Shown one piece after another: positions 1 to 18,466 of a stretch of DNA of 37,161 bases (position 1 is its first letter; the number at the start of each line of letters is the position of its first letter). The notes beneath the pieces were generated by a model. That model was not told the origin of the DNA and did no database searches. It worked only from the letters and a program-made list of their open reading frames with translations. The DNA is from a virus. The stretch lies in the IMG/VR virus record IMGVR_UViG_3300036832_000393, positions 1 through 37,161 of that record. One strand, given 5' to 3'. The translations under genes were made by a program, and so were the position numbers.

Positions 1-651
1 GCCAGCTACTGCGCAAAAGCTCAGAGAGCCCTAATCAACGACGCAGCTAGACCATTGCAATCGTTGTCGCTCAACGACATCAAACTTGCGCCGTTCCACC
101 AGCGGTTCAACTTCCCAGAGTTGAACTCGCTGGCCTCCAATGGCCTGGCCATTCAGGAAGCTGGCACCGATCAGCAACCGATGATCCTGCGTGAACAGAC
201 AACGTATCAGCTCAATCTCTACGGCGCGCCGGACGACGCATATGAGCTCGTAACGACGTTAAGCACGCTCGCGAAGCTGATGCGCAATCAGAAGCAGATG
301 GTGACGAGTCAATTCCCGCGCATGAAACTTGCTGATGATGGAACTCGCTTTGGTCCGGGTCAGGCAATCGTAACGCCGGGGATCATCAAGTCCGCGCTGA
401 TCTCACAATATCAACAAGACATGTACAACGGACTTGTTGAAAATCTGAGTGCGTTCAAACAACACCTCCTAGTTGAACGCGACCCAAATGATCCCAACCG
501 GGTCAACGTCCTGTATCCACCGGACCTGATCAATCAGCTCAGAATTTTTGCCGTGCTGAATCAGTTCAGGTTGCAGTACGACCGCGGCGTCGACTTCGAG
601 ATCATCGGACAGGCGCCGCCTCCGTTCAACGCGGCTAACCAGTCACCCTAA
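1..651 (+). CDS. Phage tail sheath protein, C-terminal part (Mu gpL-like)
   Basis: The reading frame is open from base 1, so the 5' end lies outside the window and 216 residues are visible. The sequence matches the C-terminal half of the Mu gpL sheath family: a PLQSL segment followed by the inner-fold region, then DDGTRFGPGQAIVTP and the closing VNVLYPPDLINQLRIF. Sheath subunits polymerise around the tail tube and contract to drive it through the host envelope. The tail tube gene follows, as in Mu, but about 600 bp away because a minus-strand gene lies between them. An internal TTG at 55 is not the start, since coding sequence clearly continues upstream of it. The family call is secure. Confidence 0.93.
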   Translation, partial: ASYCAKAQRALINDAARPLQSLSLNDIKLAPFHQRFNFPELNSLASNGLAIQEAGTDQQPMILREQTTYQLNLYGAPDDAYELVTTLSTLAKLMRNQKQMVTSQFPRMKLADDGTRFGPGQAIVTPGIIKSALISQYQQDMYNGLVENLSAFKQHLLVERDPNDPNRVNVLYPPDLINQLRIFAVLNQFRLQYDRGVDFEIIGQAPPPFNAANQSP

Positions 652-653
652 GC

Positions 654-670
654 TGTCAACTATTGACAGT
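654..670. repeat. Short perfect inverted repeat between convergent genes
   Basis: CTGTCAACTATTGACAG has 7-nt arms around a 3-nt centre. It begins three bases after the sheath stop codon and ends 11 bases before the stop codon of the minus-strand HNH-like gene. There is no T-run, so a classical Rho-independent terminator is not supported. A near copy lies at 27127-27142, at another convergent gene junction. Confidence 0.6.
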
Positions 671-681
671 TAGAAACGTCC

Positions 682-1227
682 TTAAGAGCGATTGTTAGCT
701 TGCTCTTTCGCAGTGGCCCAACGGCAATTGCCAGGTGTGTAGTTGCCGTTGGGGTTGATGCGATCAATCGATGTTCCTGGCGGACGCACACCCATGTCTG
801 CCAGGAAATTCTCAAATGAGTGTAGCCATCGCTTGCAAACCGTTATGCCGCGTCCGCCGTATCGTTCGTAGCGAGCGTAGTCGGGATTATAGCAACGGGA
901 CTTCATGCTCACCCACGTTCCATAGGTAGGACTCATACTGCCGCCAACGATGTGACCGTGAGTGCGATTGCTACGTCCCATCTTCTGTACGCGGTCTAGA
1001 TTCCAGCAACCGCATGATCGTGTGGTTCCGTTGTTGAGCTTCTTGGCGAGCACAACAGTCTCATTGCGGCATTCGCAGCGACAACGCCAAAGCGATCCCT
1101 GTTTGGTGGTCCCGGCGAATTCGATGACTTTCAGACGACCGAATGTGCTGCCCGTAAGATCGGCGCGGTTCCAAGCTGGTTGTCCTGTCACGTTGTTTAT
1201 CCCCAGCAACCATCCGTGATTTGGCAC
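682..1227 (-). CDS. HNH-like free-standing homing endonuclease candidate
   Basis: 181 residues from a GTG start; an in-frame GTG at 1188 (residue 14), preceded by GGGG, is an alternative start. The N-terminal half (about 25-75) has FGRLKVIE and a cysteine cluster (CRCEC...SCGC) that looks metal-binding. The C-terminal half has YGTWVSMKSRCYNP, YGGRGITVCKRW and SIDRINPNGNYTPGNCRW, the pattern of a widespread phage family with an HNH-like DNA-binding or nuclease region. The usual first HNH histidine is replaced by SIDR, so nuclease activity is inferred, not shown. It opposes the tail genes, splits the expected sheath-tube junction, and lies upstream of a tube gene carrying a group I intron, which suggests a mobile element. 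It could also be a DNA-binding protein without cleavage activity. Confidence 0.75.
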   Translation of the reverse strand: MPNHGWLLGINNVTGQPAWNRADLTGSTFGRLKVIEFAGTTKQGSLWRCRCECRNETVVLAKKLNNGTTRSCGCWNLDRVQKMGRSNRTHGHIVGGSMSPTYGTWVSMKSRCYNPDYARYERYGGRGITVCKRWLHSFENFLADMGVRPPGTSIDRINPNGNYTPGNCRWATAKEQANNRS

Positions 1228-1259
1228 TAGCCAAAACGGAAAGTCAACAGGAGGTACAG

Positions 1260-1909
1260 TTGGCCCAACGCATCGCCGGGACCGCCTTCCTTACGGTAGG
1301 TCAGGTCCAAATGGCCCTTCGGGGCAACTTCACGGTCTCACCAAGTATGTGGGAACGTACGATGCTAGCAGGACTCGATGGGATTAACTATTAGTTCCCT
1401 TTGCCGAGCAATCGGCAATGACAAAACCGGGTGAATTCGGTGGAAGTCCAGACCGGACAATACCGAGCCAAGCCACCGCAAGGTGGAAGGTGTAACGACT
1501 AGGCGAAAGCCGTAGCGTCAAGCGACGCGAAGCCCCCGGCACCCCACGCGGGTGAAGAGATAGTCTGTTCTGCGCGGTTGAACGCGCAGCGGCCCTACTT
1601 CCGAAAGGGCGGTGACGAATTAGCGACTCGTCGTGAACATCAAGACATGGTTATCAGGAACTTCCACGTGTCCCGTGGATCGAAGGCGACATCTCGGCGA
1701 TGCCGGGAATGTATCTGGAAACGCTCGAGGCTCAGGTTGACGTCACTGTCGTGGCGCAGCTGGCCAACGGGATGCAGTACACGTTGACCTCGGCCACCTG
1801 CAAATCAGGCTTCGAGGAAAACGCGAGAGACGGCCAAGTCAGGATCCGTTGGGAGGGATTGACCTGCCAGGAGGTCCAGATCGGCGCGCCCGTCACGGCG
1901 CTCGGTTAA
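1260..1909 (+). CDS. Tail tube protein (Mu gpM-like), interrupted by a group I intron
   Basis: Exon 1 starts at a TTG at 1260, five bases after a strong AGGAGG. It encodes AGTAFLTV...LRGNFTVSPSMWERTMLAGLDG and then meets TAG at 1392 inside the intron. Exon 2 runs from about 1645 to the TAA at 1907-1909 and begins HGYQELPRVPWIEGDIS. Joined at 1384/1645 the frame is restored, giving 129 residues with the continuous GLDGIHGYQE...PRVPWIEG core of the gpM family. The protein forms the inner tail tube under the sheath. Position between sheath and chaperone is canonical. Splice points are inferred from the protein alignment and the intron's terminal G. A one-base shift at the 5' site would give the same residue. 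Confidence 0.85.
1385..1644 (+). ncRNA. Group I self-splicing intron within the tail tube gene
   Basis: About 260 nt with the conserved core in order. P2 is a hairpin at about 1402-1419. P4 pairs UCGGU (1437-1441) with ACCGA (1462-1466) around P5 (GUCC/GGAC). The Q-like element reads AAUACCGAGCCAAGCC. P6 is CCACC-GCAA-GGUGG (1473-1486). P7 pairs GACUA (1497-1501) with UAGUC (1561-1565). P8 is CACCC/GGGUG (1540-1554), followed by AAGAGAUAGUC, the S element. Two hairpins between the P7 5' strand and P3', one with a GAAA loop, look like P7.1/P7.2 of group IA phage introns. P9 is CUGCGCG/CGCGCAG. There is no internal ORF. The 5' exon GGGA can pair with UCCC of the guide region, though the splice-site wobble pair is not perfect. 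Confidence 0.88.
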
Positions 1910-1930
1910 GCCTAAAGGAACACACCCAAC

Positions 1931-2392
1931 ATGAACGACCAACCACGCGAGGGGTTTATCATTGGTCAGCCGCAACGTCCGGCGCAGCCAGAGCCCCAGC
2001 CCCGACCAAACGGCCCGGCCCAGCAGGCCATGCCGATGCCCGAGCCGGTGCTCGAGCAGCCGCCGATCGAGCGCGACGCGACGGTGATGCCGCAAGAGCA
2101 TTGGCCGATCGTGGTCAAACTCATGTACAAGCCGATCAAAGACGAGAGAAACAATACTCTAACCGAGCTCTCGTTCCGCGAACCGCGGGGCGGCGATATC
2201 AACCGGTACGGCAATCCATGTCGCATCAATCAGGAAGGCGACGTGGTGATCGACGAGCGCAAGATGCACTACATCATGTCGGCGCTCTGCGGTGTGCTGC
2301 CGCCGATGCTTGAGATGCTGGATCCGCGCGACTGGAACTCCTGCGCCTATAGGCTGCGAAATTTTTTTCTACCGGACTTGCGCAGCTGGTAG
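1931..2392 (+). CDS. Tail assembly chaperone, zero-frame product (Mu gp41-like)
   Basis: 153 residues starting at an ATG preceded by AAAGGA at spacing 9-10. The first 50 residues are Pro/Gln-rich. The rest (HWPIVVKLMYKPI, TELSFREPRGGDINRYG, MHYIMSALCGVLPPML, LDPRDWN) matches the phage tail assembly chaperone family that sits between tail tube and tape-measure genes in Mu- and P2-like phages. Such proteins coat the tape measure during tail growth and are absent from the virion. The last 10 codons follow a slippery heptamer, so this is probably the shorter of two products. The family call rests on sequence and position. Confidence 0.85.
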   Translation: MNDQPREGFIIGQPQRPAQPEPQPRPNGPAQQAMPMPEPVLEQPPIERDATVMPQEHWPIVVKLMYKPIKDERNNTLTELSFREPRGGDINRYGNPCRINQEGDVVIDERKMHYIMSALCGVLPPMLEMLDPRDWNSCAYRLRNFFLPDLRSW

Positions 2393-2556
2393 GCAGCGCA
2401 GACGACATAGTTCTCGACTGCTATCGGTTGGCCAAACACTACAGCCAACCTCCTGACGTCTTCCTCAACATGCCCCTGACCGATATCCGCCTGCACATGT
2501 GGCGGACATCGCAACTTGCGCGCATTCAGCAGCGGGAAGCCAGCAGTGGCAACTGA
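1931..2556 (+). CDS. Tail assembly chaperone, -1 frameshift extended product (G-T type)
   Basis: Moving to the -1 frame at 2365 gives a 208-residue protein. The added 63 residues (STGLAQLVGSADDIVLDC, YRLAKHYSQPPDVFLNMPLT, DIRLHMWRTSQLARIQQ) look like a genuine second-frame chaperone domain with the usual PPDVFLNMPL motif. They have no start codon of their own near the beginning. The frame ends at TGA 2554-2556, overlapping the GTG of the tape measure at 2546. In lambda G/GT and P2 E/E' systems this extension recruits tube protein to the tape-measure-bound chaperone. The frameshift is inferred, but the uninterrupted -1 frame strongly supports it. Confidence 0.8.
2359..2365 (+). promoter_or_regulatory. 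Programmed -1 frameshift slippery heptamer (A AAT TTT)
   Basis: The zero-frame codons CGA-AAT-TTT contain the X-XXY-YYZ heptamer AAATTTT within a run of seven T. Slippage by -1 joins the zero frame to the open frame running to 2556. The same run could also allow polymerase slippage. I did not identify a definite downstream pseudoknot. Confidence 0.75.
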
Positions 2557-5422
2557 ATACGAAGAGTTGAAGATTACAGTAAGCCTCGACGATAATGCGT
2601 CGGGCCCACTTACGACGCTGCGCACCAACCTGCAGCAACTCGCCGATATTCCCCAGCGCGCTTCGCGCGGCGAGGAACTCGATCCCGCCATTCGCAAAAC
2701 TGCAGAATATCTCAAAGGCGTCCTGGCTCTTGGGCGCGGCTTTGAGGTACTTAAAACATTTATGAATCCGGTGGCGCTCGGGGTCGCCGCCGTCGGCTAT
2801 GAGTTCTATCGCGGGCTCGTGGCGCTGAAGAACTACACCGAAGAAATTAACAAAATGGCGCTGACGGCGAAGCAGGCTGGCATCAGCTTTGCCGAACTGC
2901 GCAACATCACGCTGCAGCTGCAGGCCTCCGGCATCGCGGTCGATAAAGTCACGGAAAGCATTCAAGGTCTCAACCACAGCATCGCACAATTGGTGCGCCC
3001 GTGGAGCGAGTTGCGAGTACGGTTGATGGAAGATGCCGGCCCGCGCGGCGCGGCACAGATGGGAGAATGGATCGAAAAGCTCACCTCAGCAAAAACTGAG
3101 ACTGAACGTCTCAACGTCGCGATGCAGGCCTCGCGCAATGTCTATGAGAATGCCCTGGCTGAAAGTCACAGTGAGATTGAGGCCCGTGATCGACAGCGGA
3201 TGTTCATGGAGGAGATCGGGCTTAACCAAGCCATGATCAGACGTGCTGAAGATCTTGGTAAGATGACGGCGGCACAAACAGCCAGATACGAGTCGCTCGT
3301 AAAATACAGCGAACAGTTCGAAAGCAAATGGGGAGAGATCCACCGGCAGCTATCTCTGAGTAAAGACATTCTCGCGAGCGAGGCGCTGTCACCAGACGGC
3401 CCATTCATGCAGCTCACGCAGCAGATACTCGAGCTCACGACAAGCATCGAGACAACGTGGGAGGACATCGACCAGCATCTCAATCAAATGAAACTTCCGG
3501 CATGGATGGAGTTGTTGATCAAGTCTCCGTATCAAGCGACTGGGAAGGCGTTGGGACTGGAGCATCTGCCGACGCTGAATGAATTATCTGGCCAACCAGG
3601 CGCGAAAGAAGGCGAAAGCTTTACAGACTATATGAGCCGCCTCGGGGGAGGCGGCAATCCAATGGCCAGGATGTTGAAGTCTTTGGGGCTTCCAGGCCTG
3701 CAGGAAGGCGGCATCGTCAATGAGCCGACACTTGCGATGCTCGGCGAGCGCGGACCAGAAGCGGTGATGCCGCTCGCGGGCAGCATCCTGGCGAACAACA
3801 CTAAAGACGATGCCGAGGCGACCGATGAGAACACGGCGACCGTGAACGAACTGACCGCGCTACTGCAGCAGTGGAACGACACGATGCGCGACCAGCTGCA
3901 GGGCGGCGGCGGTTCCACCGGCGGTGCAGGCGCGACAGGCTCATGGGGTGACGACGGCGGCGGTGGGCAAGGCGCCCAAGGTGCTGGAGGTCAAGGCGCT
4001 GGCGGTGGTCTCGGCACGACGACACCAGGAAAAACCGGCGCCACAGCTGACGTCATCGCGAAGGCTGAACAGCTGGCGAAGACCGGCAACACGGGCGCGG
4101 TCTATCAGTTCATTCGTTCACAAGGCATCCCGGTCAGTCGCTATTGGTGCGGCGAGTTTGTGGGCGCGATGGTCAAATCGTCGGGCGGCGATCTTCCGAA
4201 AGGATTTGAGACAGCCTCGAGCTGGTTAACGTGGGGACAACACGTCGATCCGAAGGATGCGCAACCGGGTGACATCGTGGTGTCGAAGGTCGGCACCTAT
4301 GGAGGAATGGCCGGCAGACCATTGAGCCCAGGCCAGCAAGGCGGCCACGTCGGAATGGTCGGATCTGGCGGCTACGATGCGAAGACCGGCAAAATTCAGA
4401 TGCTGCAGGGTGATCCCTGGCGGGAATACCCGATGGCGGTCGGCAATTACGAAATCCGCCGAGCCGTCAAGCCAGAGCAAGCGCAGCAATCGCCGAAGGC
4501 GATGGCCGAGGGCGGCATCGTTACCTCACCGACTCACGCACTGCTTGGAGAGAAGGGGCCTGAACTCGTTGTTCCGCTGAGCCGCGGTGGAGCTGGGAAA
4601 CCTGGCGCTGGAGCGCCTGGAATTTTTCACACGCCCGAGCAAATTCAGCAGCAGAAGGATTTCATCGCGCGTACGCAACTCACCTCCAATCCGCTCACCG
4701 ATATTTGGAATCCGGTCAAGAATCGCATGCAGGGCGCAGGCGATCTTTATAACACCAGCGAGACCGGCGCGACCTACCGCGAGCGACTCGGAGCTCGGGC
4801 CGCACTGCTCGGCAAACTCCTCATGGCAGGAACGTATGATCTGCCGAGCGGGATTGTGGACGCAACCCTCGGCAAGATCACTGCCGGTTGGACGGGCTTA
4901 GAACGCGGTGAAGCAAATAAATGGGCCGAGACTGCTGTAGCTGGGGTGTCACTTGCTGGCGGCGCGGCGACGGTGGCGCGGGGGGTTGGAGAACTCTCAA
5001 CGGCAATCCCCGAAGTTCTTGGAGGCGGCGAGGGCGCCCTGGCGAAAGCCATCCCGCCAGCACTTGCAGTCGGCAAAGAAATTAACAAAGCCTATCGCGA
5101 CGTCACGAACCAAGCTTATCCAACCTTTGGCGATTTCGCCCTGATCGGTGGTGCAGAAGCGCGCCCGATGGAATCATTCGGCGGCGAGCTGGCGATCGAC
5201 CGCTCGGTGGTGGGAGCTCCGCAGCGCCGCGGTGGGGGCGCCGACGGCACGATCACGGTCAAGCATGAGGCACCTGGCGAGGCTGCAGCGCCGAAGGTGC
5301 CGGTGTTCGATGGGTTCCATTTAGACGGGCAAACCCAAATGGCGGACGCAGCGCACGGGCCGCAGCTCAATCATCAGCTGTCCCCAATTGAGGTGCGTGG
5401 CGTTAAGCATCTGGCGCAATAA
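2546..5422 (+). CDS. Tail tape measure protein 1 with CHAP-like peptidase domain
   Basis: 958 residues from a GTG at 2546. This start is chosen because MATEYEELKITV matches the start of the next gene (MGTEYEELKIRI). It overlaps the chaperone frameshift frame by 11 nt. Residues 1-270 are helical and related to the next gene. The motif GGIVNEPTLAMLGERGPEAV (about 389-408) and a second copy, GGIVTSPTHALLGEKGPEL (about 654-672), are typical of tape-measure proteins. Between them (about 505-645) is a cysteine-peptidase-like domain with RYWCGEFVG (candidate Cys) and QGGHVGMV (candidate His), resembling CHAP/NlpC-type virion hydrolases. The C-terminal part is Ala/Gly-rich. Likely roles are setting tail length and local peptidoglycan cutting during entry. 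Confidence 0.85.
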   Translation: MATEYEELKITVSLDDNASGPLTTLRTNLQQLADIPQRASRGEELDPAIRKTAEYLKGVLALGRGFEVLKTFMNPVALGVAAVGYEFYRGLVALKNYTEEINKMALTAKQAGISFAELRNITLQLQASGIAVDKVTESIQGLNHSIAQLVRPWSELRVRLMEDAGPRGAAQMGEWIEKLTSAKTETERLNVAMQASRNVYENALAESHSEIEARDRQRMFMEEIGLNQAMIRRAEDLGKMTAAQTARYESLVKYSEQFESKWGEIHRQLSLSKDILASEALSPDGPFMQLTQQILELTTSIETTWEDIDQHLNQMKLPAWMELLIKSPYQATGKALGLEHLPTLNELSGQPGAKEGESFTDYMSRLGGGGNPMARMLKSLGLPGLQEGGIVNEPTLAMLGERGPEAVMPLAGSILANNTKDDAEATDENTATVNELTALLQQWNDTMRDQLQGGGGSTGGAGATGSWGDDGGGGQGAQGAGGQGAGGGLGTTTPGKTGATADVIAKAEQLAKTGNTGAVYQFIRSQGIPVSRYWCGEFVGAMVKSSGGDLPKGFETASSWLTWGQHVDPKDAQPGDIVVSKVGTYGGMAGRPLSPGQQGGHVGMVGSGGYDAKTGKIQMLQGDPWREYPMAVGNYEIRRAVKPEQAQQSPKAMAEGGIVTSPTHALLGEKGPELVVPLSRGGAGKPGAGAPGIFHTPEQIQQQKDFIARTQLTSNPLTDIWNPVKNRMQGAGDLYNTSETGATYRERLGARAALLGKLLMAGTYDLPSGIVDATLGKITAGWTGLERGEANKWAETAVAGVSLAGGAATVARGVGELSTAIPEVLGGGEGALAKAIPPALAVGKEINKAYRDVTNQAYPTFGDFALIGGAEARPMESFGGELAIDRSVVGAPQRRGGGADGTITVKHEAPGEAAAPKVPVFDGFHLDGQTQMADAAHGPQLNHQLSPIEVRGVKHLAQ

Positions 5423-8400
5423 TGGGAACGGAATACGAAGAACTAAAAATCCGGATCGGCCTCGAGGACGCCGAAGATGCCTACGCACGCGTGCGCGCTC
5501 AGGCGCAACAATTGGCGCAGGCTGGGGCCCTAAAATTTCCAACGCAGGAGCTCAACAACTTCAACCGGTCGCTCGATCAGGCGACGCGCATGACGGCCTC
5601 CTACATCCAAGGCCTGGCCGGGCTCGGCCGAGCTTTCGAAGTGCTTAAACTGTGGATTAATCCCGGCTATCTCGCCATCGGCGTCCTCGGCTATGAATTC
5701 TATCGCGGATCGCAGGCGCTGCGTCGCCAAGCAGAGGCCATGCAAGACATGGCGCTGTCGGCAAAACAGGCTGGCATTAGCTTCGGCGAATATCGGAATG
5801 CAGCCAGTCAATTTCAGGCGGTAGGAATTGGCATCGATCAGGTGAAGTCAAGCATCTCCGGTTTGCACAACACCATTGCGCAGTTAACCAGACCATGGAG
5901 CCAGCTCCGCGTGACCCTGCTAGAAGACGCCGGGCCAGCTGGCGCTGCGCAGATGCAGGATTGGATCAACCGCCTCGTCTCAGCGCGCACCGAAGGAGAG
6001 CGGTTCTCGATTGCCCGCGTAGGATGGGAGAACGTCTATCGCAATGCGCTGCGCGAAACCAATAGCGAGATAGAGGCCCGCAATCGCGCAGCGATGTTCA
6101 TGAACGAGATCGGAGTTGATCCTCAGTTCATCCGTTGGATGCGCGACTTTTCAGACATGACGGCAGAGCAGACACGACGCTATGAAAATCTTGCTAATTA
6201 CAGCGGAATCTATGCCGGGAAATGGAGCGAGATCTTTAGAAACTTCCGGCTGATGGGAGATCTCTTCGCAAGCGAACTCCTCACGCCAGACAGTCCAATC
6301 ATGCAAGGAACCGAGCAACTCTCGATTCTGGTGAAGGGTGTTCTCGACATTCTCGAAAAGATCGATGCGATAGTTAGAAAAATTCCGCCGATGCCGAAAG
6401 GCAATGTGTTCGGTAATGCCTCACAAGCAGCCAAACGCTTGCTTACGCCGCAGATGTTCGGTGGTGGATTGTTCCAGCCGGGCGCGCCCGGGTCTCCAAC
6501 AGGGGCAGCGGCTGGCATGGGTGTGCCGCCCGATCGACGAGCAATCCCACCGATCCAACGCGGCGGCGCTGGCGCTGGCGCGCTGCAGCAAGGTCTCGAG
6601 GTCGAAAAGAGCACCGCCTCGACGAGCTCCAACACATCCGCTTTCCGTCGGCTGATCGACGAAGTCGAGGACATGCTCGCCGGCGCGCTTGGTGGCGGCG
6701 GTGGTGGTGCCGGCGGCCTCGCGCAGCAGCTTGGCATCGGAGACATCGGCCGCGGCCCAGGCGGCACCACAGGCACGGACGGCACGCAAGGCACGACCGA
6801 TCAAGGCCCGACCGGACCAAAGGCACCAACAAGTCCAGAGGAAGCGGCGGAAACTATCGAGGATGCATCGAAGAAAGGATTTATCGAGACCGAGGGCGGC
6901 GGCGGCCCAACGACCGTGGAGAACGCCCCTGAGACAGTCGCGGACGCGCAAAAAGCCGGGATGTTTGATCAGGCGCTAAACCTGGCCAATATTCGCAACG
7001 CGGTCGCCGGACGTCAGATACATGGTTACACCACCGATCAAATCGCGGCCGCACTCGCTGGTCCGAAAACCGGTGGCGGCGCTGGCGGCCTTGGCGGCAA
7101 CGTGGCTGGTGGCGCCGTTGTAACGAAACCTGGCGGCACGGTCGATGCCGATTCTTTGTACAAATATTATGTCAGCCAATTCCGCGGCTCCAAGCTCGAT
7201 GGGTTTATTCCGAAAGACGGCGCACAGTTTGGCATCATTAAAGGCACGCCAGAAGAATATGCGCGGCTGGCGCTCGCGACCTCAATTCAAGAAAGCGGGT
7301 TGCGAGCTAACGCGCCGCGCGGCGGTCTCAATCAGATGGCTGCGAGTAATTTAAGGGATTACGGCGTTACTGGCGACGTCAATGATCCGACCGCCCAAGC
7401 GACAGCTCTTAGCAATGTATTCAAGAAATTTATCCCGCAGGATGGAGTGATCACCGGTCCAGGCAGAGAGAGCGCCGGTGCAGGTCGATACTTCGGATCG
7501 ATCCGCGCGGGCTGGAATCAACGCGGCGTCGATATTTTGTCCGGTCGAGATTCGCCGATGGCGCAGGCGAATAGGATTGCCACGGCCGCTGGCGCTGTGC
7601 CCACGGGCGCAGCACAAGCACCGACACCGGTCGTAGGCGGCGGCGGCACATCAGGAGGCGCTGGCGCGACAGGCGCCGTTCCTACAACATCGCCACTACC
7701 GCGAGGCCAGGTTTATCCTGGCGCACCGACAGCGCCTGGCGCGATGCAATCCGCAACCGGCGCACCTCAGGCTTTCATCGTTCATCATACCGGACCAGGC
7801 ATTAACACAGCAGCTCAATTGCTGAGCGTGTTGAAACAGCGTGGCGGCTTGGGGGTCGAATACACGCAATTGCCGAATGGAGACATCGTTCAGGTCGGTC
7901 AGCCTGGTGCGGCGAACATCCGCCCGGAAGACATGATCAATCCGAAAACCGGGAAAACCTACGGAACCGAACTTGGCGCTTCTCTGAAATTACGCAATCA
8001 AAATATCGTCGGCATCGAGGTGATGGCGGCGAACGATGCTGCGGTGAAAGACGAAAATGCCAGGAAACTAGCGAACTGGATCCAGACCAACTATCCGCAG
8101 ACACCGGTTTATGGTCACGGCGAAATACAAAGCGACAAAGAGCCGGACGAGGGTCAGAAGGTTACCAGAATGGTGCGGGCGATGCGGGCCGGCACTATGC
8201 AGAGTGATGCTGGTGCCCAGGACGCGAAAGACGATTTGTTAGATAAGCTGATCGGGGCGCCACCATCTCCAACCGTAATGTCTGCTGACGAAATACGTCA
8301 GGCGCGCAAGGGGCTCGATAAATCTGCTGCCGCAGACACCGGTGGCGGTGGCGAAAAACCAAAACTCACTATCAATCATGAAGACGCGCCCGACGGTGCA

Positions 8401-8589
8401 AAGGTCGAGACCGACGGCAAGGTCTTTGACGGGTTTGAGCTCGAGCATACCAAGACCACGACCTCTGATAAGCGCCGCAGCGCGCAAGCGCCCGGCTCTT
8501 TTGGCCGTGGTGCTCCTGGTGCAACGAAGACCGCATCGCCGCTTGAGCTTGAGGGCATCAAGGGCAACACGATAGCAAAGGCCGCGTGA
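5422..8589 (+). CDS. Tail tape measure protein 2 with lysozyme-like and amidase domains
   Basis: 1055 residues. Its ATG overlaps the preceding stop by one base (TAATG). Residues 1-270 share long colinear blocks with tape measure 1 (MALSAKQAGISF, TRPWSQLRV, EDAGPAGAAQM, SEIEARNRAAMFM). Gly/Ala/Thr-rich linkers follow. About 573-715 resembles a lysozyme-like fold with SIQESGLRANAPRGGLNQM (candidate catalytic Glu near 622). About 782-915 is an Amidase_2/PGRP-type N-acetylmuramoyl-L-alanine amidase: FIVHHTGPG supplies the first zinc His, and GHGEIQSDKEPDEG has the His...Lys-x-x-Asp arrangement of AmpD. The protein would be virion-associated and help DNA entry. It ends in a short region related to the end of tape measure 1 (KVFDGFEL vs PVFDGFHL). 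Confidence 0.85.
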   Translation: MGTEYEELKIRIGLEDAEDAYARVRAQAQQLAQAGALKFPTQELNNFNRSLDQATRMTASYIQGLAGLGRAFEVLKLWINPGYLAIGVLGYEFYRGSQALRRQAEAMQDMALSAKQAGISFGEYRNAASQFQAVGIGIDQVKSSISGLHNTIAQLTRPWSQLRVTLLEDAGPAGAAQMQDWINRLVSARTEGERFSIARVGWENVYRNALRETNSEIEARNRAAMFMNEIGVDPQFIRWMRDFSDMTAEQTRRYENLANYSGIYAGKWSEIFRNFRLMGDLFASELLTPDSPIMQGTEQLSILVKGVLDILEKIDAIVRKIPPMPKGNVFGNASQAAKRLLTPQMFGGGLFQPGAPGSPTGAAAGMGVPPDRRAIPPIQRGGAGAGALQQGLEVEKSTASTSSNTSAFRRLIDEVEDMLAGALGGGGGGAGGLAQQLGIGDIGRGPGGTTGTDGTQGTTDQGPTGPKAPTSPEEAAETIEDASKKGFIETEGGGGPTTVENAPETVADAQKAGMFDQALNLANIRNAVAGRQIHGYTTDQIAAALAGPKTGGGAGGLGGNVAGGAVVTKPGGTVDADSLYKYYVSQFRGSKLDGFIPKDGAQFGIIKGTPEEYARLALATSIQESGLRANAPRGGLNQMAASNLRDYGVTGDVNDPTAQATALSNVFKKFIPQDGVITGPGRESAGAGRYFGSIRAGWNQRGVDILSGRDSPMAQANRIATAAGAVPTGAAQAPTPVVGGGGTSGGAGATGAVPTTSPLPRGQVYPGAPTAPGAMQSATGAPQAFIVHHTGPGINTAAQLLSVLKQRGGLGVEYTQLPNGDIVQVGQPGAANIRPEDMINPKTGKTYGTELGASLKLRNQNIVGIEVMAANDAAVKDENARKLANWIQTNYPQTPVYGHGEIQSDKEPDEGQKVTRMVRAMRAGTMQSDAGAQDAKDDLLDKLIGAPPSPTVMSADEIRQARKGLDKSAAADTGGGGEKPKLTINHEDAPDGAKVETDGKVFDGFELEHTKTTTSDKRRSAQAPGSFGRGAPGATKTASPLELEGIKGNTIAKAA

Positions 8590-9320
8590 TCGCTATGGCA
8601 TTCGGACCGTTCGGTGGAGCACCAAAGCAACCTGTGGCACCAATCTTCGGACCATTTGTAGAAGCTGGTCTGCCAACACACCATGCTTATGGCCCGTATA
8701 GTCCGCCGCAAGATCTCTCCAAGAACATCGTCGACTTCAACAAACGGAAGTCGCAAGCGGGGGATCAATTCGGCTGGGGCTACAAATTTGTCACCGCCAA
8801 CTTCAAGGGCGCGTTTTTCCATTGCGAGACCAGTAGCGTCGAGAGCGGGCTACGTCTTGTCGAGCATGAATTCCCGAAAAAAATGCTGCCCTATGCGGAG
8901 TCGATGGGGCACAAAGCGATTACGTGGTCAGTGCGCGGATACATCGCGACGTTCCCCTACGACAGTGCCGACAATGTTCTGAACACGACGGACTATACGC
9001 GTGGCCGCGATGAGCTCGCCCGTGCGGTCGATAGCAATAATCCTGGCTGGCTGCAGATCCACACGATGCCGCCGCTCTATTGCTACTGTCAGCGATGGCG
9101 ATTGACGGAAACCGAGAAGCAAGGCGGCTACTGCACATTTGACATGGAATTCGTCGAATACGGTTTGCAGCCGTTCCAATATACGACGGACGCCTACACT
9201 GCGGTGCAGGCTGCGGTCGATAATCTGCGCGCCCAGTTGGTGGCGCCCGGCCAGCCCTGGGTTCCTGATAGCATTGGCACATTGCTATCGCCGCACGGTG
9301 GCGCCAGCGGGAGCTTCTAA
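8586..9320 (+). CDS. DNA circularisation/baseplate protein, N-terminal domain (Mu gpN-like)
   Basis: 244 residues. The GTG at 8586 overlaps the previous stop (GTGA); ATG at 8595 is an alternative start. The core FKGAFFHCETSSVESGLRLV, EHEFPKKMLPYAESMGHKAI and a C-terminal YCTFDMEFVEYG match the N-terminal domain of the Mu gpN family (DNA circularisation protein), a baseplate hub component. Family members usually have about 450-500 residues. Here the frame stops after the N-terminal domain and the C-terminal domain is in the next gene. The unusual N-terminus (MAFGPFGGAPKQPVAPIFGP) is Pro/Gly-rich. Confidence 0.85.
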   Translation: MIAMAFGPFGGAPKQPVAPIFGPFVEAGLPTHHAYGPYSPPQDLSKNIVDFNKRKSQAGDQFGWGYKFVTANFKGAFFHCETSSVESGLRLVEHEFPKKMLPYAESMGHKAITWSVRGYIATFPYDSADNVLNTTDYTRGRDELARAVDSNNPGWLQIHTMPPLYCYCQRWRLTETEKQGGYCTFDMEFVEYGLQPFQYTTDAYTAVQAAVDNLRAQLVAPGQPWVPDSIGTLLSPHGGASGSF

Positions 9321-9992
9321 ATGGACAAGGCAGAGGCGCTCGAGGCAGCTGGCATCGTCATTCGATTGTGCGAAAACTTGCTGCAAACGGTTTCGTCATA
9401 TGGGCGCGCGGCCACGGATGCGCGCACGGCCTGCGGCGATCTGATCGCGCAAGCTTATACGCTGCTACGCAACGACGATGTTGCGGTTTCGCTGGATAAA
9501 TGTTTCCAGCTGATCTGGTACGCTGGAGCAACGCAGCCCGAGATCGCTTCGGTGCGCGTGTTTCTCGAGGCCGAACAACCGCAGACACTCGGCGGCATAG
9601 CGACGCAAAATCTCGGCATTCGGTTTTGTCTGGTGATTGAGTGCACGATCATCATCAACATGACGTTTGTCAGTCGCGAAGACGTCGATGCCATCAAGTA
9701 TTCGATGACGCTGCCGTTCCGCGCGGCCGAGGAAATCGCCGCCGATGATATGGACCAGGCTAATCTCATGCCCATCATTGCGCTCTGGTCGGCGCTGACG
9801 AATTATCTGTGCACGATAGAGCTGCCGTTGCCGCAGATGCTGAACTACTGGTTTGCTGACGTGTTCCCGAGCTTGCTTGTATCGCAGCGACTCTATAGCG
9901 ACGCCAGCAATGCGGACACAATCCGCGATGGCAACAAGATCGTTCATCCGGCGTTCTGCCCGCCGACGGGTAAAGCCCTAGCAAGCAGTTGA
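9321..9992 (+). CDS. gpN C-terminal domain as a separate protein
   Basis: 223 residues. The ATG follows the preceding TAA with no gap (TAAATG). The N-terminal half is helical, and the end (LPQMLNYWFADVFPSLLVSQ, RLYSDASNADTIRDGN, IVHPAFCP) matches the C-terminal region of gpN-like proteins, where LPSLVVAQRLYGDA...RNxIxHPxF is typical. Together with the upstream gene it would rebuild a normal gpN. Immediate coupling suggests equimolar synthesis. The C-terminal assignment is by recognition of this motif only. Confidence 0.7.
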   Translation: MDKAEALEAAGIVIRLCENLLQTVSSYGRAATDARTACGDLIAQAYTLLRNDDVAVSLDKCFQLIWYAGATQPEIASVRVFLEAEQPQTLGGIATQNLGIRFCLVIECTIIINMTFVSREDVDAIKYSMTLPFRAAEEIAADDMDQANLMPIIALWSALTNYLCTIELPLPQMLNYWFADVFPSLLVSQRLYSDASNADTIRDGNKIVHPAFCPPTGKALASS

Positions 9993-9999
9993 GCCATCC

Positions 10000-11184
10000 A
10001 TGCCAAACGGAGAGGAGATCGCCGTTCTAACGGTGAACGGTCAGACGTTTCAAGATTGGGAATCGGTGTGGGTGCGACACCGCTGGCACGAGGCCTTTCA
10101 TCAGTTCAAGTTCACTGCGGTCGAGCGCGATCCGATGCCGCAGTATTGGACGCAGACGAAATTCAAGCCGTGCGACATGTGTACGATCACGCTCGGCGGC
10201 CAGATGGCAGTCAACGGCACCATCCTAACCCGCCAGACTGTCTACGACGCTAATAGCCACGGCGTGCAATTGAGCGGCGTCAGCCTAACCTACTGGGGAA
10301 ACAAATCGAGTGTCTGGACCGACACGATGAACTTCGATGGCATGACCTTTGAGCAGATCGCGCGCAAGGTCACCGAGCCGTACAACATGAACATCCAAGT
10401 CGTCGGTCAGCTTGATGCGAAACCATTTGACAAACTCTCGGCGCAGTATGGCGAAACGGTCTGGGATTTCCTTGAGCGCATCGGTCGAGATCGTAGCGTA
10501 GTGCTCGGCACCGGCGCTGATGGAAGTATGTTGCTGATCGGCAATCACACCAAGCCAATTGTGAGCGATCTCATCGAAGGCGTGAACATTCTGCGCTGCA
10601 GCTGCACTATCAACGTTGCACCGAAATTCAGGCACTACGGTGTAGCTGTGCAGAAACCGAGCAGCGATCAGAGCAGCGGCGTTGACGCCAATCAGATCTT
10701 GAAATTGGCGCAAGGCACAGGATGCTATCCGAGCTTTCAGCTGACGAACATGGAACATCCAGGGGACGAAGATGACGCGCAGAAGCGCGCCAACTTCGAA
10801 GCGCGCTGGCACGAGGGTTATTCGGTCACGGCGCAGGTCACGGTGCAGGGATGGTTGCGGGCACATGGCTCGCTGTGGACGGTCGGCGACAATGTGTTTG
10901 TTCATTCGCCGATGGCAATGTTGGACCAAGTGCTGAAGATCCAGCAGGCCACTTTCATGCAAGACAGCAAGAGTGGGACGACGACGACCCTCGATCTCGT
11001 TGTGCCATGGTTGCTTGAGGATCGCGCCGGTGGCGGATTCAACCCTGGCAACCCGACGACGCCGCCAGAGCCTGGAGCAGCGACGACGGCACCCGCGCAA
11101 CCGAAAAGCAGTCCGGTGCCTCCTCCTCCACCAGCTCCTGGCACGCCGGGTGGTGTCGACAATCCAATCATTCCGGGTAGGTGA
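10000..11184 (+). CDS. Baseplate hub protein (Mu gpP/gp44-like)
   Basis: 394 residues from an ATG 8 bp after the gpN-C stop. Features are VLTVNGQTFQDWESVWVRH at the N-terminus, a region with GVQLSGVSLTYWGNKSSVWT, and TVWDFLERIGRDRSVVLGT, typical of the gpP/gp27-like hub family with its split-barrel domains. The last 60 residues are a Pro/Gly-rich tail (PPPPPAPGTPGG) not usual for the family. The hub sits at the centre of the baseplate, above the spike encoded by the next gene. Order gpN-gpP-gp45 is as in Mu. Confidence 0.87.
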   Translation: MPNGEEIAVLTVNGQTFQDWESVWVRHRWHEAFHQFKFTAVERDPMPQYWTQTKFKPCDMCTITLGGQMAVNGTILTRQTVYDANSHGVQLSGVSLTYWGNKSSVWTDTMNFDGMTFEQIARKVTEPYNMNIQVVGQLDAKPFDKLSAQYGETVWDFLERIGRDRSVVLGTGADGSMLLIGNHTKPIVSDLIEGVNILRCSCTINVAPKFRHYGVAVQKPSSDQSSGVDANQILKLAQGTGCYPSFQLTNMEHPGDEDDAQKRANFEARWHEGYSVTAQVTVQGWLRAHGSLWTVGDNVFVHSPMAMLDQVLKIQQATFMQDSKSGTTTTLDLVVPWLLEDRAGGGFNPGNPTTPPEPGAATTAPAQPKSSPVPPPPPAPGTPGGVDNPIIPGR

Positions 11185-13722: not shown

Positions 13723-14436
13723 GTGGCCGACCAACATGTCAGACGCACCGGCGATGACTATGCGGTAGCTCTTGGCAATTTGCTGCCGTGGGGACCAGCT
13801 TGGCCACGGCATCCAACCAGTATCTTGATGCAGGTCGTTTCTGGCTTAGCGAACTACTGGGGATTTGTGGATGCGCGGGCGGCAGACTTACTGGAGCAAG
13901 AAAGCGATCCGCGATTAACGATTGAGCTCCTACCAGACTGGAACAGAAATTTCGGGCTACCGGATCCGTGCTACCGGCAAGCTCTTACCATAGATCAACA
14001 GCATCAGTTGCTGCTTTTCCAAATGACGCTACTCGGTGCTCAAAGCCGAGAATTTTTTATCAATATGATGGCGTGGTTGGGTTACAGCATCAGTATTTCG
14101 GAGTGGGCCCCATTTACTTGCGGAATCTCGCAGGTTGGCGACACGCGCGGCATGATTCCGTGGAACGATACGCCCGGTCATCACCCTGAAGTCACCGATT
14201 TCAGGTGGGAGATCGGCGACCCGACGATGAGGTTTTATTGGCAAGTCCACGTTCATCTAGCTCCGCTGACGTGGTTTCGAGTCGGGTCCGGCCAAGCTGG
14301 CGTCGATCCGCATTTGACCATTCAGTATGCAAAAGATCTTGAATGTTTGCTTAGGCGCTGGAAGCCGGCGCAGACTGATATAATTTTCGACTACAGCAAC
14401 CTCACACCCGCCGACAAGTATGCAGGATTGCCATGA
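13723..14436 (+). CDS. Baseplate/tail fibre connector gp48-like (YmfQ, DUF2313)
   Basis: 237 residues from a GTG at 13723, preceded by AAAGGA. DDYAVALGNLLPWGPAWPR, LPDWNRNFGLPDPC and the long central region place it in the YmfQ/gp48 family encoded between gpJ and the tail fibre. The last four bases overlap the fibre start (ATGA), so the two are translationally coupled. It is the likely attachment point of fibres on the baseplate. Confidence 0.87.
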   Translation: MADQHVRRTGDDYAVALGNLLPWGPAWPRHPTSILMQVVSGLANYWGFVDARAADLLEQESDPRLTIELLPDWNRNFGLPDPCYRQALTIDQQHQLLLFQMTLLGAQSREFFINMMAWLGYSISISEWAPFTCGISQVGDTRGMIPWNDTPGHHPEVTDFRWEIGDPTMRFYWQVHVHLAPLTWFRVGSGQAGVDPHLTIQYAKDLECLLRRWKPAQTDIIFDYSNLTPADKYAGLP

Positions 14437-16217
14437 AATATGAAAGTCCCTTTGGAATCTCCGATCCTAACGCGCCGTACATTAACGGCCTGCCGGCGCA
14501 GGGGATTCAAGGATCGATTCCAAGTGCTGCTACAGTTGAAAATCCAATGCGCGAGATCGAAAATTTAATCGAGAACTCGCAGCAAACGCCTAGCGATGAT
14601 GATTTGATGCAGGTTACTCGGTCAGTTCGTGACGGACGATTGAACTTTCGCGTTGATCAAGGAACAGCACCAAATCAACTTATTGTGGCGCAACTCTCGC
14701 CACCGATAACGTCATATGATGCCGGATTGGAATTGCGCGTGCTGGTCGCCCACAGCGTAACCGGCGCGACTACAATTCAGGTTGGCACGCTTCCGCCAAC
14801 GGGGGTGATAGATTTACAAGGCAGCGCCTTAACGGCCAATGATTTGTTGGCTGGACAGATTGCCGATTTGGTCTGCGATGGTGTGCAGTTTCAGGTTCAG
14901 AACCTTGGCATTGCTGATCAGGCTGGAGCTGGCAATATTGATCGATATCAAGTTTTGATTCCTTATGTTCACGATACCGGCACTACAAATCATCTGATCG
15001 GCTTATACGTTCCGGCATTGCCGGATATCAATGAACATAGAACGGTTGAGATCAAACTGGCAAACGCCACGACCGGGCCGGTTGACTTCAAGCCCAACAA
15101 CTTTCCGGTCTATCCCGTGCGGCATCCAGATGGTTCTGACCTAGGGCCTGGCGATGGCGTTGGCAATCAAATTTTTCTTCTCTGCTTCGACGGTGGGCAG
15201 TGGCAGTTGATCAGCAGCCGCTCGGATCCGAATGCCGTTATTGTAAGAACGCCAAAACGGTCGCTGCAATTTCAAGACCCGAATGCGGGATGGTGGGGAA
15301 CTTACACGTCTTTCCCATTTATGATGCGCACGCCCAAAGCTGCTGGCAACAGCAACATATGGACGTTCAGCACATTCATTCGTTGGCCGGTTTTGATCCC
15401 GCGGCCTAATGTACTTCCCGGCAATCAAACCGATTTGAGAGAGTTCGTTTTATCCGCCGCCGACGCTACCGGGTCGGCTACTGGTGGGGCCGGCGATGTG
15501 ACTTGCTTGGAATTTGAAGGTGGTGACATCGACACTTGTCTATCGACCTTTTGGCATAACACTAACGTCCCAATAACTGGCTACGGCGACTCCACCACCC
15601 CGCCGACGCATAACGGCATTTTTAAATGGGGCCTGTTCAAAGACACAAATTGGCATCACTTGTTGTGGAGGGCAGACGCGATCACTGCCCATCAAACTGA
15701 AGTGTGGGTCGATGGCATTCTGGTGAATGCTGCTTCTGTGACTAGTGCGAGCACGATGAATGCGGCGCGGCTTCATGCTCTTGGCACCGAAACCGGCCCG
15801 GACAATCCTGCCACAACTACTCCAACTCCAGTCGCGTTCCAACCATCGGTCTACGGCTGTCGTGCTCGTATGGCCGAGGTTTGCATGGTGGACGGGCAGT
15901 GGCTCGATTGGAGTTATTTCGCCTACAACATCGGCGGCATCATGATTCCGAAAGTGCTTAATATAGGAGCGATGAATTTCGGGACGAACGGCTATTATTT
16001 GAATTGGGCGGATGGCACAGCCATGACCTCAACAACTTTAGGCACCGATTATAGCGGCAAAGGTAACGCCTGGACGCCTGTGAACTTCACGGCTGCGCAC
16101 CTGCATTTGGACTATCCTGGCAATCCTGACTCCACCGAGACCTTTGGAACTTTCACCAACGGCGGGACGTGGCCAACGGGTCTCCCGCCGGGATGGCGCA
16201 CGACATCGGGACCGTAA
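14433..16217 (+). CDS. Tail fibre 1 with C-terminal LamG-like domain
   Basis: 594 residues. The N-terminal 170 (ESPFGISDPNAPYINGLPAQ, a GSIPSAATVENPMREI segment, then beta-rich sequence) is probably the baseplate-binding part, and is shared with fibre 2. A segment with VEIKLANATTGPVDFKPNN follows. The C-terminal half is a concanavalin/LamG-like carbohydrate-binding region: NIWTFSTFIRWP, NWHHLLWRADAI, TEVWVDGILVN, RMAEVCMVDGQW, NGYYLNWADG and SGKGNAWTPVN, a pattern common in phage fibres. It probably recognises a host surface glycan. It is coupled to gp48 upstream. Confidence 0.8.
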   Translation: MKYESPFGISDPNAPYINGLPAQGIQGSIPSAATVENPMREIENLIENSQQTPSDDDLMQVTRSVRDGRLNFRVDQGTAPNQLIVAQLSPPITSYDAGLELRVLVAHSVTGATTIQVGTLPPTGVIDLQGSALTANDLLAGQIADLVCDGVQFQVQNLGIADQAGAGNIDRYQVLIPYVHDTGTTNHLIGLYVPALPDINEHRTVEIKLANATTGPVDFKPNNFPVYPVRHPDGSDLGPGDGVGNQIFLLCFDGGQWQLISSRSDPNAVIVRTPKRSLQFQDPNAGWWGTYTSFPFMMRTPKAAGNSNIWTFSTFIRWPVLIPRPNVLPGNQTDLREFVLSAADATGSATGGAGDVTCLEFEGGDIDTCLSTFWHNTNVPITGYGDSTTPPTHNGIFKWGLFKDTNWHHLLWRADAITAHQTEVWVDGILVNAASVTSASTMNAARLHALGTETGPDNPATTTPTPVAFQPSVYGCRARMAEVCMVDGQWLDWSYFAYNIGGIMIPKVLNIGAMNFGTNGYYLNWADGTAMTSTTLGTDYSGKGNAWTPVNFTAAHLHLDYPGNPDSTETFGTFTNGGTWPTGLPPGWRTTSGP

Positions 16218-16222
16218 ACCCA

Positions 16223-16717
16223 ATGGCAATTTTTACACACGACAGACCAGATCCCAAGTACTACACGAATATCGTGCAGTACGACAATGGAGATTGGGCT
16301 GCCGATCCACTGCCACTCGATGATACGATCATATATCCGGTCAGGGGCGGATACGGCAGCGCGGGTATTCCAGCTCCTGGCTTGCGCACGATCACTTCGA
16401 ACAGCTTGAAAACCCTGGCGTTGCAATTGATCAACACGTACGCGCCCAGCGATTTGCAACGAAATTCTCTCTTCATCTTGACAACGCAAACATCTGGTAC
16501 TGCTTGGACGAACGCCAAGGCGATGATGGACTGGATCGTGGCGGTTAATGCTTACAGAGACACCCAGATTGCGAACGTCAAGACGTTAAACTTCAACCAA
16601 ATAGTTTTATATATCCCGCCCACTGGAATGCCGCCTTGGCCTGCGCCACCGGCAAGCCTGCCACCAGTCCCGCCGGCACGGGTAGGAAGTGCTACCCACA
16701 AACTTCGCTATTCCTAA
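16223..16717 (+). CDS. Small fibre-associated protein 1 (possible fibre chaperone)
   Basis: 164 residues from the ATG at 16223, chosen because MAIFTHDRPDPKYYTNI aligns with the second copy near 18.6 kb; no clear Shine-Dalgarno precedes it. The conserved C-terminal half has INTYAPSDLQRNSLF, VNAYRDTQIANVKTLNFNQI and PPTGMPPWPAPP. The position directly after a fibre gene and the helix plus WP-rich end recall phage tail fibre assembly chaperones, but I do not recognise the family with confidence. It could instead be a structural cap. The last residues are Pro-rich and basic. Confidence 0.7.
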   Translation: MAIFTHDRPDPKYYTNIVQYDNGDWAADPLPLDDTIIYPVRGGYGSAGIPAPGLRTITSNSLKTLALQLINTYAPSDLQRNSLFILTTQTSGTAWTNAKAMMDWIVAVNAYRDTQIANVKTLNFNQIVLYIPPTGMPPWPAPPASLPPVPPARVGSATHKLRYS

Positions 16718-16729
16718 AGGAGAGATGAC

Positions 16730-18466
16730 GTGCAGTATCAGCCTCCATATGGACCGCCGGGATCAATCCCTCCAGATAGTTCGTACATTAATGGCGATCC
16801 TAGCATTGGTCGTCAGGGCAGCGTGCCGCCCGCCTCAGCGTTTGAATACCCGCAGCGGGAAATAGTAAATTTAATCGGTAACTCGAATCAGGTTCCCACT
16901 GATCAAGATTTGAATCAGATGACGCGCGCAGTGCGCGACGGCAAGCTGATCTACAATCTCGACAGCGGGCCGCTGAACACCGTAGAGATTCCCAATTTTA
17001 CTCCGCCCATCATATCCTACACCCAAGGGCTGACGTTACACGTTCTCATTGCCCACACAGTCACCGGGCCTACGACGATAGCGATAGGCAGCATCAATCC
17101 GACAGCCATCAAGCGTAGAGATGGTGCGGAACTGCAGCCTAACGATATGGTCGCGGGGCAGATTGCTACGCTCGTGTGCGATGGCACTTATTTTCAACTT
17201 CAGAACATGGGCTCTGACGGCAGTGTTGGTGGTGCGACGACGGTGCACAATGTCGATATCCCCTATGTTCACGACACTGGCGCGCTGGACCCGAACTGGC
17301 AAGTTGCAACACAAATTACAAAAAATCACGTGATTGGTGCGTATAGTCCTGTCTTACCTGACATCAACGAAGGCCGCACGGTTGAGGTTAAGCTCGATCA
17401 AGTCATCCAAGGGCCAACTGACTTTGCTCCAAATAATTTTCCGATTCATGCAGTCGCGCATCCAGACGGTTCGCCAATTGCAGCTGGCGATGGTGTACCG
17501 AATCAAATCTGGCTCCTCGTCTTCGATTCAGTCCAATGGCAATTGCTTGATGTTTTTAATTCAGGCGTGCAGACCATACCTGCGGCACCCAAAGCCTATG
17601 ATGGCAGATCGCTTCAATTGGATCCTCCCGGCACTCCTTATTACATAGCAGGCAACACTACCTCCTGTCTGACTCGATCTCCTACGATGAACACTAATAG
17701 GCAAGTGTTCACAATCAGCGCCTTCGCAAAACTGCCTGTGCCAGTAACTTACAACTCGGCGGCCCCATATCAGGATGCCGGTGATATGTTGTTCTCTGCC
17801 GGTGATGAAGGTGGGACATGGTGGGGCTGCACCATGAATTGGTTTGGGATACTTGGTGTCGGAGATGGAAGCGGCGGCAACATTTTTGAACTCTTTTGGG
17901 CTAACTCAGGCGGCCAAGTTGCTGGTGTCGGATCATATCAATCCTACACCGGAACGACCAACGGCTACTATACGTCAGGCGTATTTGTTGACAACAAGTG
18001 GCACCATGTTTTGATTGTTGCTGATGGTGCCTTTCTATATGCCTATTTGGACGGAATTCTAAAGAGTAAGGGATCAATCTCTGGCAACAGCCCTTGGAAC
18101 AGCACGTTGATACATAGTATCGGAGCGATGTGGGATTGTACTGGAGGTCCACTGGGAGCGGCCGCTGGATACTATGCAAGCAGCCGGCTCCGTTTCGCAG
18201 AAGTGATTCATCTCGATGGTCAGGCGATAGGAGATTACACAAAATTTGCCGTAGCTAACAATGGCATCCTTGTGCCGCTCGATCCGAGCGTGATCAGTGC
18301 GCTTCCATTCGGCCCCAACGGATTTTATTTGAACTGGCAAAATGCGAGCGATGTTACGCCGACCGGATTGGGCAAGGATTTCAGTGGCCAAAACAATAAC
18401 TGGACATGTCTCAATCTTGATCTGAGCCACCTTCAGACTGACTTTCCTGGGAAACAGCAAACGTGA
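16730..18466 (+). CDS. Tail fibre 2, paralogue of fibre 1
   Basis: 578 residues from GTG at 16730 behind AAAGGAGAG. The N-terminal 170 residues follow fibre 1 block by block (YINGDPSIGRQGSVPPASAF, YPQREIVNLIGNSNQVPT, LNQMTRAVRDGKLIYN). The C-terminal LamG-like half has FTISAFAKLPVP, KWHHVLIVADGAFLYAYLDG, RLRFAEVIHLDGQA, GPNGFYLNWQNAS and FSGQNNNWT and is more diverged than the N-terminus. Two fibres with a common base and different tips suggest two receptor specificities or a heteromeric fibre. It overlaps the next small gene by four bases (GTGA). Confidence 0.8.
   Translation: MQYQPPYGPPGSIPPDSSYINGDPSIGRQGSVPPASAFEYPQREIVNLIGNSNQVPTDQDLNQMTRAVRDGKLIYNLDSGPLNTVEIPNFTPPIISYTQGLTLHVLIAHTVTGPTTIAIGSINPTAIKRRDGAELQPNDMVAGQIATLVCDGTYFQLQNMGSDGSVGGATTVHNVDIPYVHDTGALDPNWQVATQITKNHVIGAYSPVLPDINEGRTVEVKLDQVIQGPTDFAPNNFPIHAVAHPDGSPIAAGDGVPNQIWLLVFDSVQWQLLDVFNSGVQTIPAAPKAYDGRSLQLDPPGTPYYIAGNTTSCLTRSPTMNTNRQVFTISAFAKLPVPVTYNSAAPYQDAGDMLFSAGDEGGTWWGCTMNWFGILGVGDGSGGNIFELFWANSGGQVAGVGSYQSYTGTTNGYYTSGVFVDNKWHHVLIVADGAFLYAYLDGILKSKGSISGNSPWNSTLIHSIGAMWDCTGGPLGAAAGYYASSRLRFAEVIHLDGQAIGDYTKFAVANNGILVPLDPSVISALPFGPNGFYLNWQNASDVTPTGLGKDFSGQNNNWTCLNLDLSHLQTDFPGKQQT

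Follow-up and report, generated by a model that had tools for sequence, protein, structure and literature searches.

Does the tail tube gene of this soil phage, which reads as two pieces in the genome, still encode a whole protein, and how might the element between the pieces have come to lie there? The stretch of DNA analyzed (hereafter the window) comprises positions 1–37,161 of the IMG/VR virus record IMGVR_UViG_3300036832_000393. Its genes run from a truncated Mu-like tail sheath gene, past an antisense HNH gene, to the tail tube, tail assembly chaperone, tape measure, and baseplate genes. The 3′ part of the sheath gene occupies 1–651 on the plus strand (phrog_165, 3.6e-56), its 5′ end being upstream of the window start, and a free-standing HNH endonuclease gene of 181 aa lies between sheath and tube at 682–1227 on the minus strand (phrog_374, 8.1e-61). 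The nearest prophages to this myophage group are in Bradyrhizobium. Farther downstream, two ORFs at 14433–16217 and 16730–18466 belong to the same uncharacterized families (phrog_27411 and phrog_17588), which looks like a duplication within the tail genes.

The Split Tail Tube Gene and Its Predicted Joined Product

The tube frame, which opens with TTG at 1260, is closed by TAG 1392 and reopens at 1646 (CAT GGT TAT CAG). The initial annotation had attributed this break to a group I intron of about 260 nt, with the frame resuming at 1645, and the attribution is borne out by an intron model match above cutoff and by a joined protein that matches intronless relatives. On the plus strand, exon 1 extends over 1260–1384 and ends with U1384 in the codon AT/A, exon 2 extends over 1645–1909 with its stop codon at 1907–1909, and the ORF-less intron between them (1385–1644) is 260 nt long. 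Against the Tail_tube family of the Mu gpM type (PF10618; cutoff 23), exon 1 alone scored 19.4 bits (E 1e-3) and exon 2 alone 55.3 bits (E 7.7e-15), and the joined exons reached 87.1 bits (9.9e-25). The profile coverages of the two exons (2–41 and 42–116) abut without overlap, and the gpM-type identity is also indicated by position, the tube gene coming just after the sheath gene.

Removal of the intron restores the frame and gives a tube protein of 129 aa, equal in length to those of two intronless relatives (L002 and L003), which are 96% identical to it over 129 aa. Both relatives carry the junction sequence GLDGIHGYQELPRVPWIEG exactly and thus hold empty sites, as the initial annotation had expected of intronless relatives. 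The position of the intron in the most conserved motif of the tube gene is part of the best explanation of the locus, and the observation of a tube gene split by an intron is confirmed.

Fold and Subgroup of the Intron

The Rfam group I intron model (RF00028), proposed earlier as a check, matched the window at a single place, 1375–1589 on the plus strand, over the full model (1–253) and with 57.9 bits (E 2.5e-12) against a gathering cutoff of 50 bits. R1, a covariance model of the intron core from this intron family, scored 165.6 bits on the window tube intron, a value that is high by construction. A blastn search with the intron region returned only partial core matches, in many phages, and no ORF of at least 70 aa was found inside the intron.

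The intron structure is directly supported by covariation in a full-length alignment of six related introns with 61 pairs, in which 95% of the cells pair, compared with 82.9% after shuffling. Two-sided changes were seen at 31 of the 61 pairs, P7 included, against 13.6 in shuffles (0/500 shuffles reached 31), and when partners were slid by 1–3 columns, just 3–6 pairs retained such changes. Folding of the single sequence gave weaker support (z −2.67).

The helices P2 through P9, with P7.1 and P7.2, can all be drawn, and the pairings P4 to P9 listed in the initial annotation are covariation-supported. Both RF00028 and covariation place P3 (1427–1433/1533–1539), P4 (1436–1442/1461–1467), P5 (1447–1449/1455–1457), and P6 (1473–1477/1482–1486), all on the plus strand like the remaining helices. 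Covariation also supports P2 (1403–1407/1412–1416), P8 (1541–1544/1549–1552), P9 (1571–1576/1583–1588), P9.1 (1592–1594/1608–1610), and P9.2 (1612–1618/1628–1634), and it extends to the guanosine-binding pseudoknot helix P7 (1497–1501/1561–1565), which shows one compensatory change, from A-U to G-C, in a relative and is missing from the nested consensus. The conserved core P3–P8 with its P3/P7 pseudoknot is therefore present. Between P7 and P3′ lie two extra hairpins that covary, P7.1 (1502–1504/1509–1511) and P7.2 (1515–1519/1524–1528), as had been noticed from the sequence. Such hairpins are the hallmark of subgroup IA, to which the intron is accordingly assigned, with IA1 and IA2 not separated.

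Splice Sites and Predicted Splicing

Splice sites were placed by the rule that a U precedes the intron, a G ends it, and the frame is kept, which leaves few options. U1384 is the only U near the end of exon 1 that combines a good P1 with a U·G pair (score 10, all others at most 4). In P1 (1380–1398, plus strand), the exon sequence GGGAU (1380–1384) faces the guide GUUCC (1394–1398), with U1384·G1394 at the 5′ splice site. When guides and exons of eight introns from different sites were permuted, only 6 of 40320 permutations reached the summed fit of each guide to its own exon. The last base of the intron is omega-G1644, and a P10 pairing, sought by eye, gave nothing convincing. Together, U1384 and omega-G1644 set the intron at 1385–1644 with exon 2 starting at 1645, and give the junction GLDG-I-HGYQ with the Ile codon AT/A spanning it. 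The joined protein of the initial annotation omitted this one Ile; the correct reading is GLDGI-HGYQ.

Judging from the sequence, we consider it very probable that the element within the tail tube gene is a self-splicing ribozyme of group IA, and splicing is predicted to proceed as follows. In the tube mRNA, the guide would pair with the end of exon 1, and exogenous guanosine, held in P7, would attack after U1384. The freed exon 1 would then attack after omega-G1644, so that the joined exons would encode the 129-aa tube protein. Ribosomes would not enter the ribozyme core, as the in-frame TAG would halt them after eight bases of the intron. An early in-frame stop in phage introns goes with coupled transcription and translation, and the 10 related introns examined fit this pattern, each having such a stop that starts no more than 11 nt from its 5′ splice site.

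A Second Intron in the Sheath Gene

The record IMGVR_UViG_3300036791_000068 (L010/L030) is identical to window positions 1–11005 (11005 bases at 100%) and extends upstream, which makes the sheath gene of this phage readable there (L030 as oriented, 6097–8180, minus strand; phrog_165). In the 5′ end of this gene, some 1.1 kb before the window begins, lies a second, related group I intron, likewise of 260 nt (6144–6403, minus strand; 77.6 bits). It splits the sheath gene after MPISFSDIPQNIKVPL, and the joined sheath reads ...VPLYWVEVDPSMAGLP. The same sheath site is also occupied in L002 and L008, and adjacent sheath sites are occupied in four further relatives (L021, L020, L038, and L261). In the closest relative, L002, the sheath intron is present, and both the tube intron and the HNH gene are absent. 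We also considered that the tube intron might be a copy of its counterpart in the sheath gene, but in a tree of intron cores the window tube intron clusters (supports 84–90) with introns from coat genes, capsid genes, and other tube genes rather than with that counterpart, a result that is weak because the cores are short.

Recurrence among Relatives

A search with R1 found tube introns in L244/L330 (MADRVAGIA-F), L228 (PRV-PWIEG), and L383 (LPLRG-NF), so that, with the window, tube introns occupy four different sites in four phages. The tube protein of L361–L363 is unbroken and 100% identical to the joined protein of L228. Most tube relatives are intronless. No intron was found in the prophages at nine Bradyrhizobium loci, and each of 19 records of cultured phages with a related tube (25–37% identity) gave one unbroken match. 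In another arrangement, L051 (2501–3262; also L052, L056, L058, and L062) has a tandem pair of tube genes after the sheath, with identities to the query of about 76% and 64%.

The intron core pattern itself occurs in at least 120 stretches in viral contigs, and the intron family is therefore common. In a gene survey whose sample, being drawn by pattern from these introns, is biased, 18 of 65 downstream exon frames among the matches listed match the major head protein phrog_1328 and 8 of 65 match the tail sheath phrog_165, followed by tape measure and DNA polymerase. L198 (1234–1773 and about 1860–2090) repeats the layout of the window: a LAGLIDADG endonuclease gene immediately precedes a probable major capsid gene, which a related ORF-less intron splits. 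Three or four introns of the family occur per short stretch in L201, L243, L224, and L221, perhaps within one many-exon gene each.

Endonuclease Genes between Sheath and Tube

At six of 120 distinct tube loci from the closer group, all of them covering the end of the sheath gene, a homing-type endonuclease gene stands between sheath and tube. These are HNH genes of phrog_374 in the window and in L330 (48.5% identical), EndoVII-like genes in L383 and L380, and GIY-YIG genes in L045 and L346. The HNH gene of the window (682–1227) has its conserved motifs intact in an alignment with relatives. In L383, a second free-standing endonuclease gene (NUMOD4 and HNH_3; 2867–3391) lies just downstream of the tube, and the two endonuclease genes bracket an intron-bearing tube gene. 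In a more distant subgroup, the sheath–tube gap holds a sialyltransferase-like gene (phrog_4603; L402 1738–2394, similarly L418, L403, and L426).

An intron without an endonuclease of its own and a free-standing endonuclease gene adjoining the interrupted gene are both found in the window. This arrangement matches collaborative homing, given the F-CphI/psbA precedent and the association of these introns with endonuclease genes, an association that is directly observed. We put at about even the chance that the protein-less intron enters intronless phages together with the neighboring HNH gene by this route. The HNH enzyme would cut tube alleles that lack the intron, at the insertion site or close by; repair would copy both the intron and the HNH gene, and the intron would shield its own genome from cutting. 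Both the target and the homing are here inferred.

Alternative Readings of the Locus

A reading without any intron, in which the break comes from an error in sequencing or assembly, from a programmed frameshift, or from two genes being distinct, was suggested by nothing other than the raw translation in two pieces, and its likelihood is negligible. Such causes do not account for the ribozyme fold, with its covariation, of the 260-nt insert, for the exact empty sites in relatives, or for exon profile coverages that abut; moreover, the 100% identity to another record over 11 kb argues against assembly error. The RF00028 match, the empty sites, and the covariation together refute this reading. 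An intron that has decayed, with a recognizable fold, lost or poor splicing, a broken tube, and hence a defective phage, is improbable. RF00028 does score the tube intron (57.9) below the sheath intron that this phage also carries (77.6); yet all core helices pair, P1 and P7 are intact, and the tail genes around the tube gene read open. The exons contain no other stops and have a dN/dS of about 0.04, which would mostly reflect time before insertion if the insertion is recent, and the identical sequence recurs in the second record.

A further reading competes with the homing step only, and we judge it slightly short of an even chance: the intron is real and splices, and the HNH gene is an unrelated passenger, the intron spreading by flank recombination or reverse splicing. 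On this reading, free-standing endonucleases and introns both gather at conserved late genes, and gap endonucleases (GIY-YIG, EndoVII-like, or other) occur in phages without a tube intron (L045, L346, L380, and L390). L228, conversely, has a tube intron and a gap without an endonuclease gene; none of 79 further HNH relatives has an intron of this kind within about 3 kb, L244/L330 alone having one; and the variety of sites occupied in tube and sheath is in keeping with several independent arrivals. Against the passenger reading stands the distribution of gap endonucleases, found at three of the four tube-intron loci and at three of the 116 intronless ones (Fisher p 2.8e-4; a small count, uncorrected for ancestry). 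The intron and the HNH gene were also gained or lost together between the window and its closest relative L002, and collaborative homing is known elsewhere (PMC6083498, PMC10448857).

A Possible Hot Spot

Beyond collaborative homing at this one tube gene, we tentatively propose, at odds clearly below even, that the sheath–tube junction of this myophage group is a hot spot. Small ORF-less IA introns and free-standing homing endonucleases from unrelated families would have been paired there repeatedly, each pair having a target site of its own, and the wider intron clade would prefer highly expressed virion structural genes (major capsid, sheath, and tube) over DNA-metabolism genes. If so, collaborative homing arose several times over at one short locus. 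Introns of this endonuclease-free family of about 260 nt occur in both sheath and tube of one phage and occupy several positions within these two genes in its relatives. In the pattern-drawn and hence biased sample, the family is often found in virion structural genes, in contrast to the preference for metabolism genes in recent papers. Close phage pairs with and without the intron and endonuclease offer a natural set for studying how collaborative homing arises, and the twin sheath and tube introns, with several endonuclease families at the junction, make it testable. Annotators of metagenomic phages should bear in mind that a short, split tail gene can be an intact one that bears an intron.

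Comparison with Known Systems

Group I introns in virion genes are already known, and the window is a new case of a known kind of element. In Staphylococcus phage Twort (L441), the gene right after the sheath gave RF00028 matches at 16606–16892, 16973–17197, and 17248–17506, and R1 matched two of the three Twort introns (107.4 and 79.7 bits), so introns of this ribozyme type are not without precedent in a tube gene. One of the Twort introns, orf142-I2, is the crystallized Twort ribozyme. The gene concerned, orf142, encodes the tail tube protein (PMC11878797) and, like the window tube gene, bears group I introns directly after the sheath, three as opposed to one. The Twort tube, however, is of the Herelleviridae (phrog_985, with no match to phrog_185), whereas that of the window is PF10618. 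Exon skipping is reported for Twort, where an intron-encoded-nuclease gene lies downstream; the nuclease gene of the window is upstream, antisense, and outside the tube gene. The initial annotation was not aware of such an intron in a gpM-type tube gene; for phage tail tube genes at large, group I introns are not new. Neither an intron in a gpM-type (PF10618) tube gene nor a phage with both sheath and tube split was found in the literature searched, beyond which most subscription literature lies.

Cluster J mycobacteriophages have group I introns in capsid and tail genes, shown by RT-PCR (PMC3706429). The tail-gene intron of BAKA and Optimus resembles that of the window in being ORF-less (265 nt) and in a virion tail gene, with an RT-PCR-confirmed exon 1 ending in U and intron ending in G, and free-standing HNH genes occur in the same genomes; the host phages, by contrast, are actinobacterial siphoviruses, and the gene is a different one. 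The introns of T4 td, nrdB, and nrdD and of the SPO1 DNA polymerase gene are group IA and share with the window intron the subgroup features, the early in-frame stop, and a location in conserved codons of needed genes. Unlike it, they interrupt nucleotide or DNA metabolism genes and bear endonucleases. Recent papers describe phage group I introns as favoring nucleotide and DNA metabolism genes, a preference that they call mysterious (PMC12350094, PMC11878797).

A parallel to the arrangement as a whole is the psbA intron of cyanophage S-PM2 with F-CphI, for which collaborative homing was described (Zeng et al., 2009; PMC6083498). The arrangement has also been noted for T7-like and other phages in a paper that offers, as an alternative, the replacement of an intronic enzyme, since lost, by a free-standing one (PMC10448857). 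S-PM2 and the window share a group I intron with an adjacent free-standing endonuclease gene, as well as intronless relatives. Cleavage of intronless alleles and protection by the intron were shown for S-PM2, whereas for the window both are inferred; and F-CphI is of the EndoVII type, whereas the enzyme of the window is an HNH endonuclease of phrog_374 and the neighbor of the tube intron in L383 is EndoVII-like.
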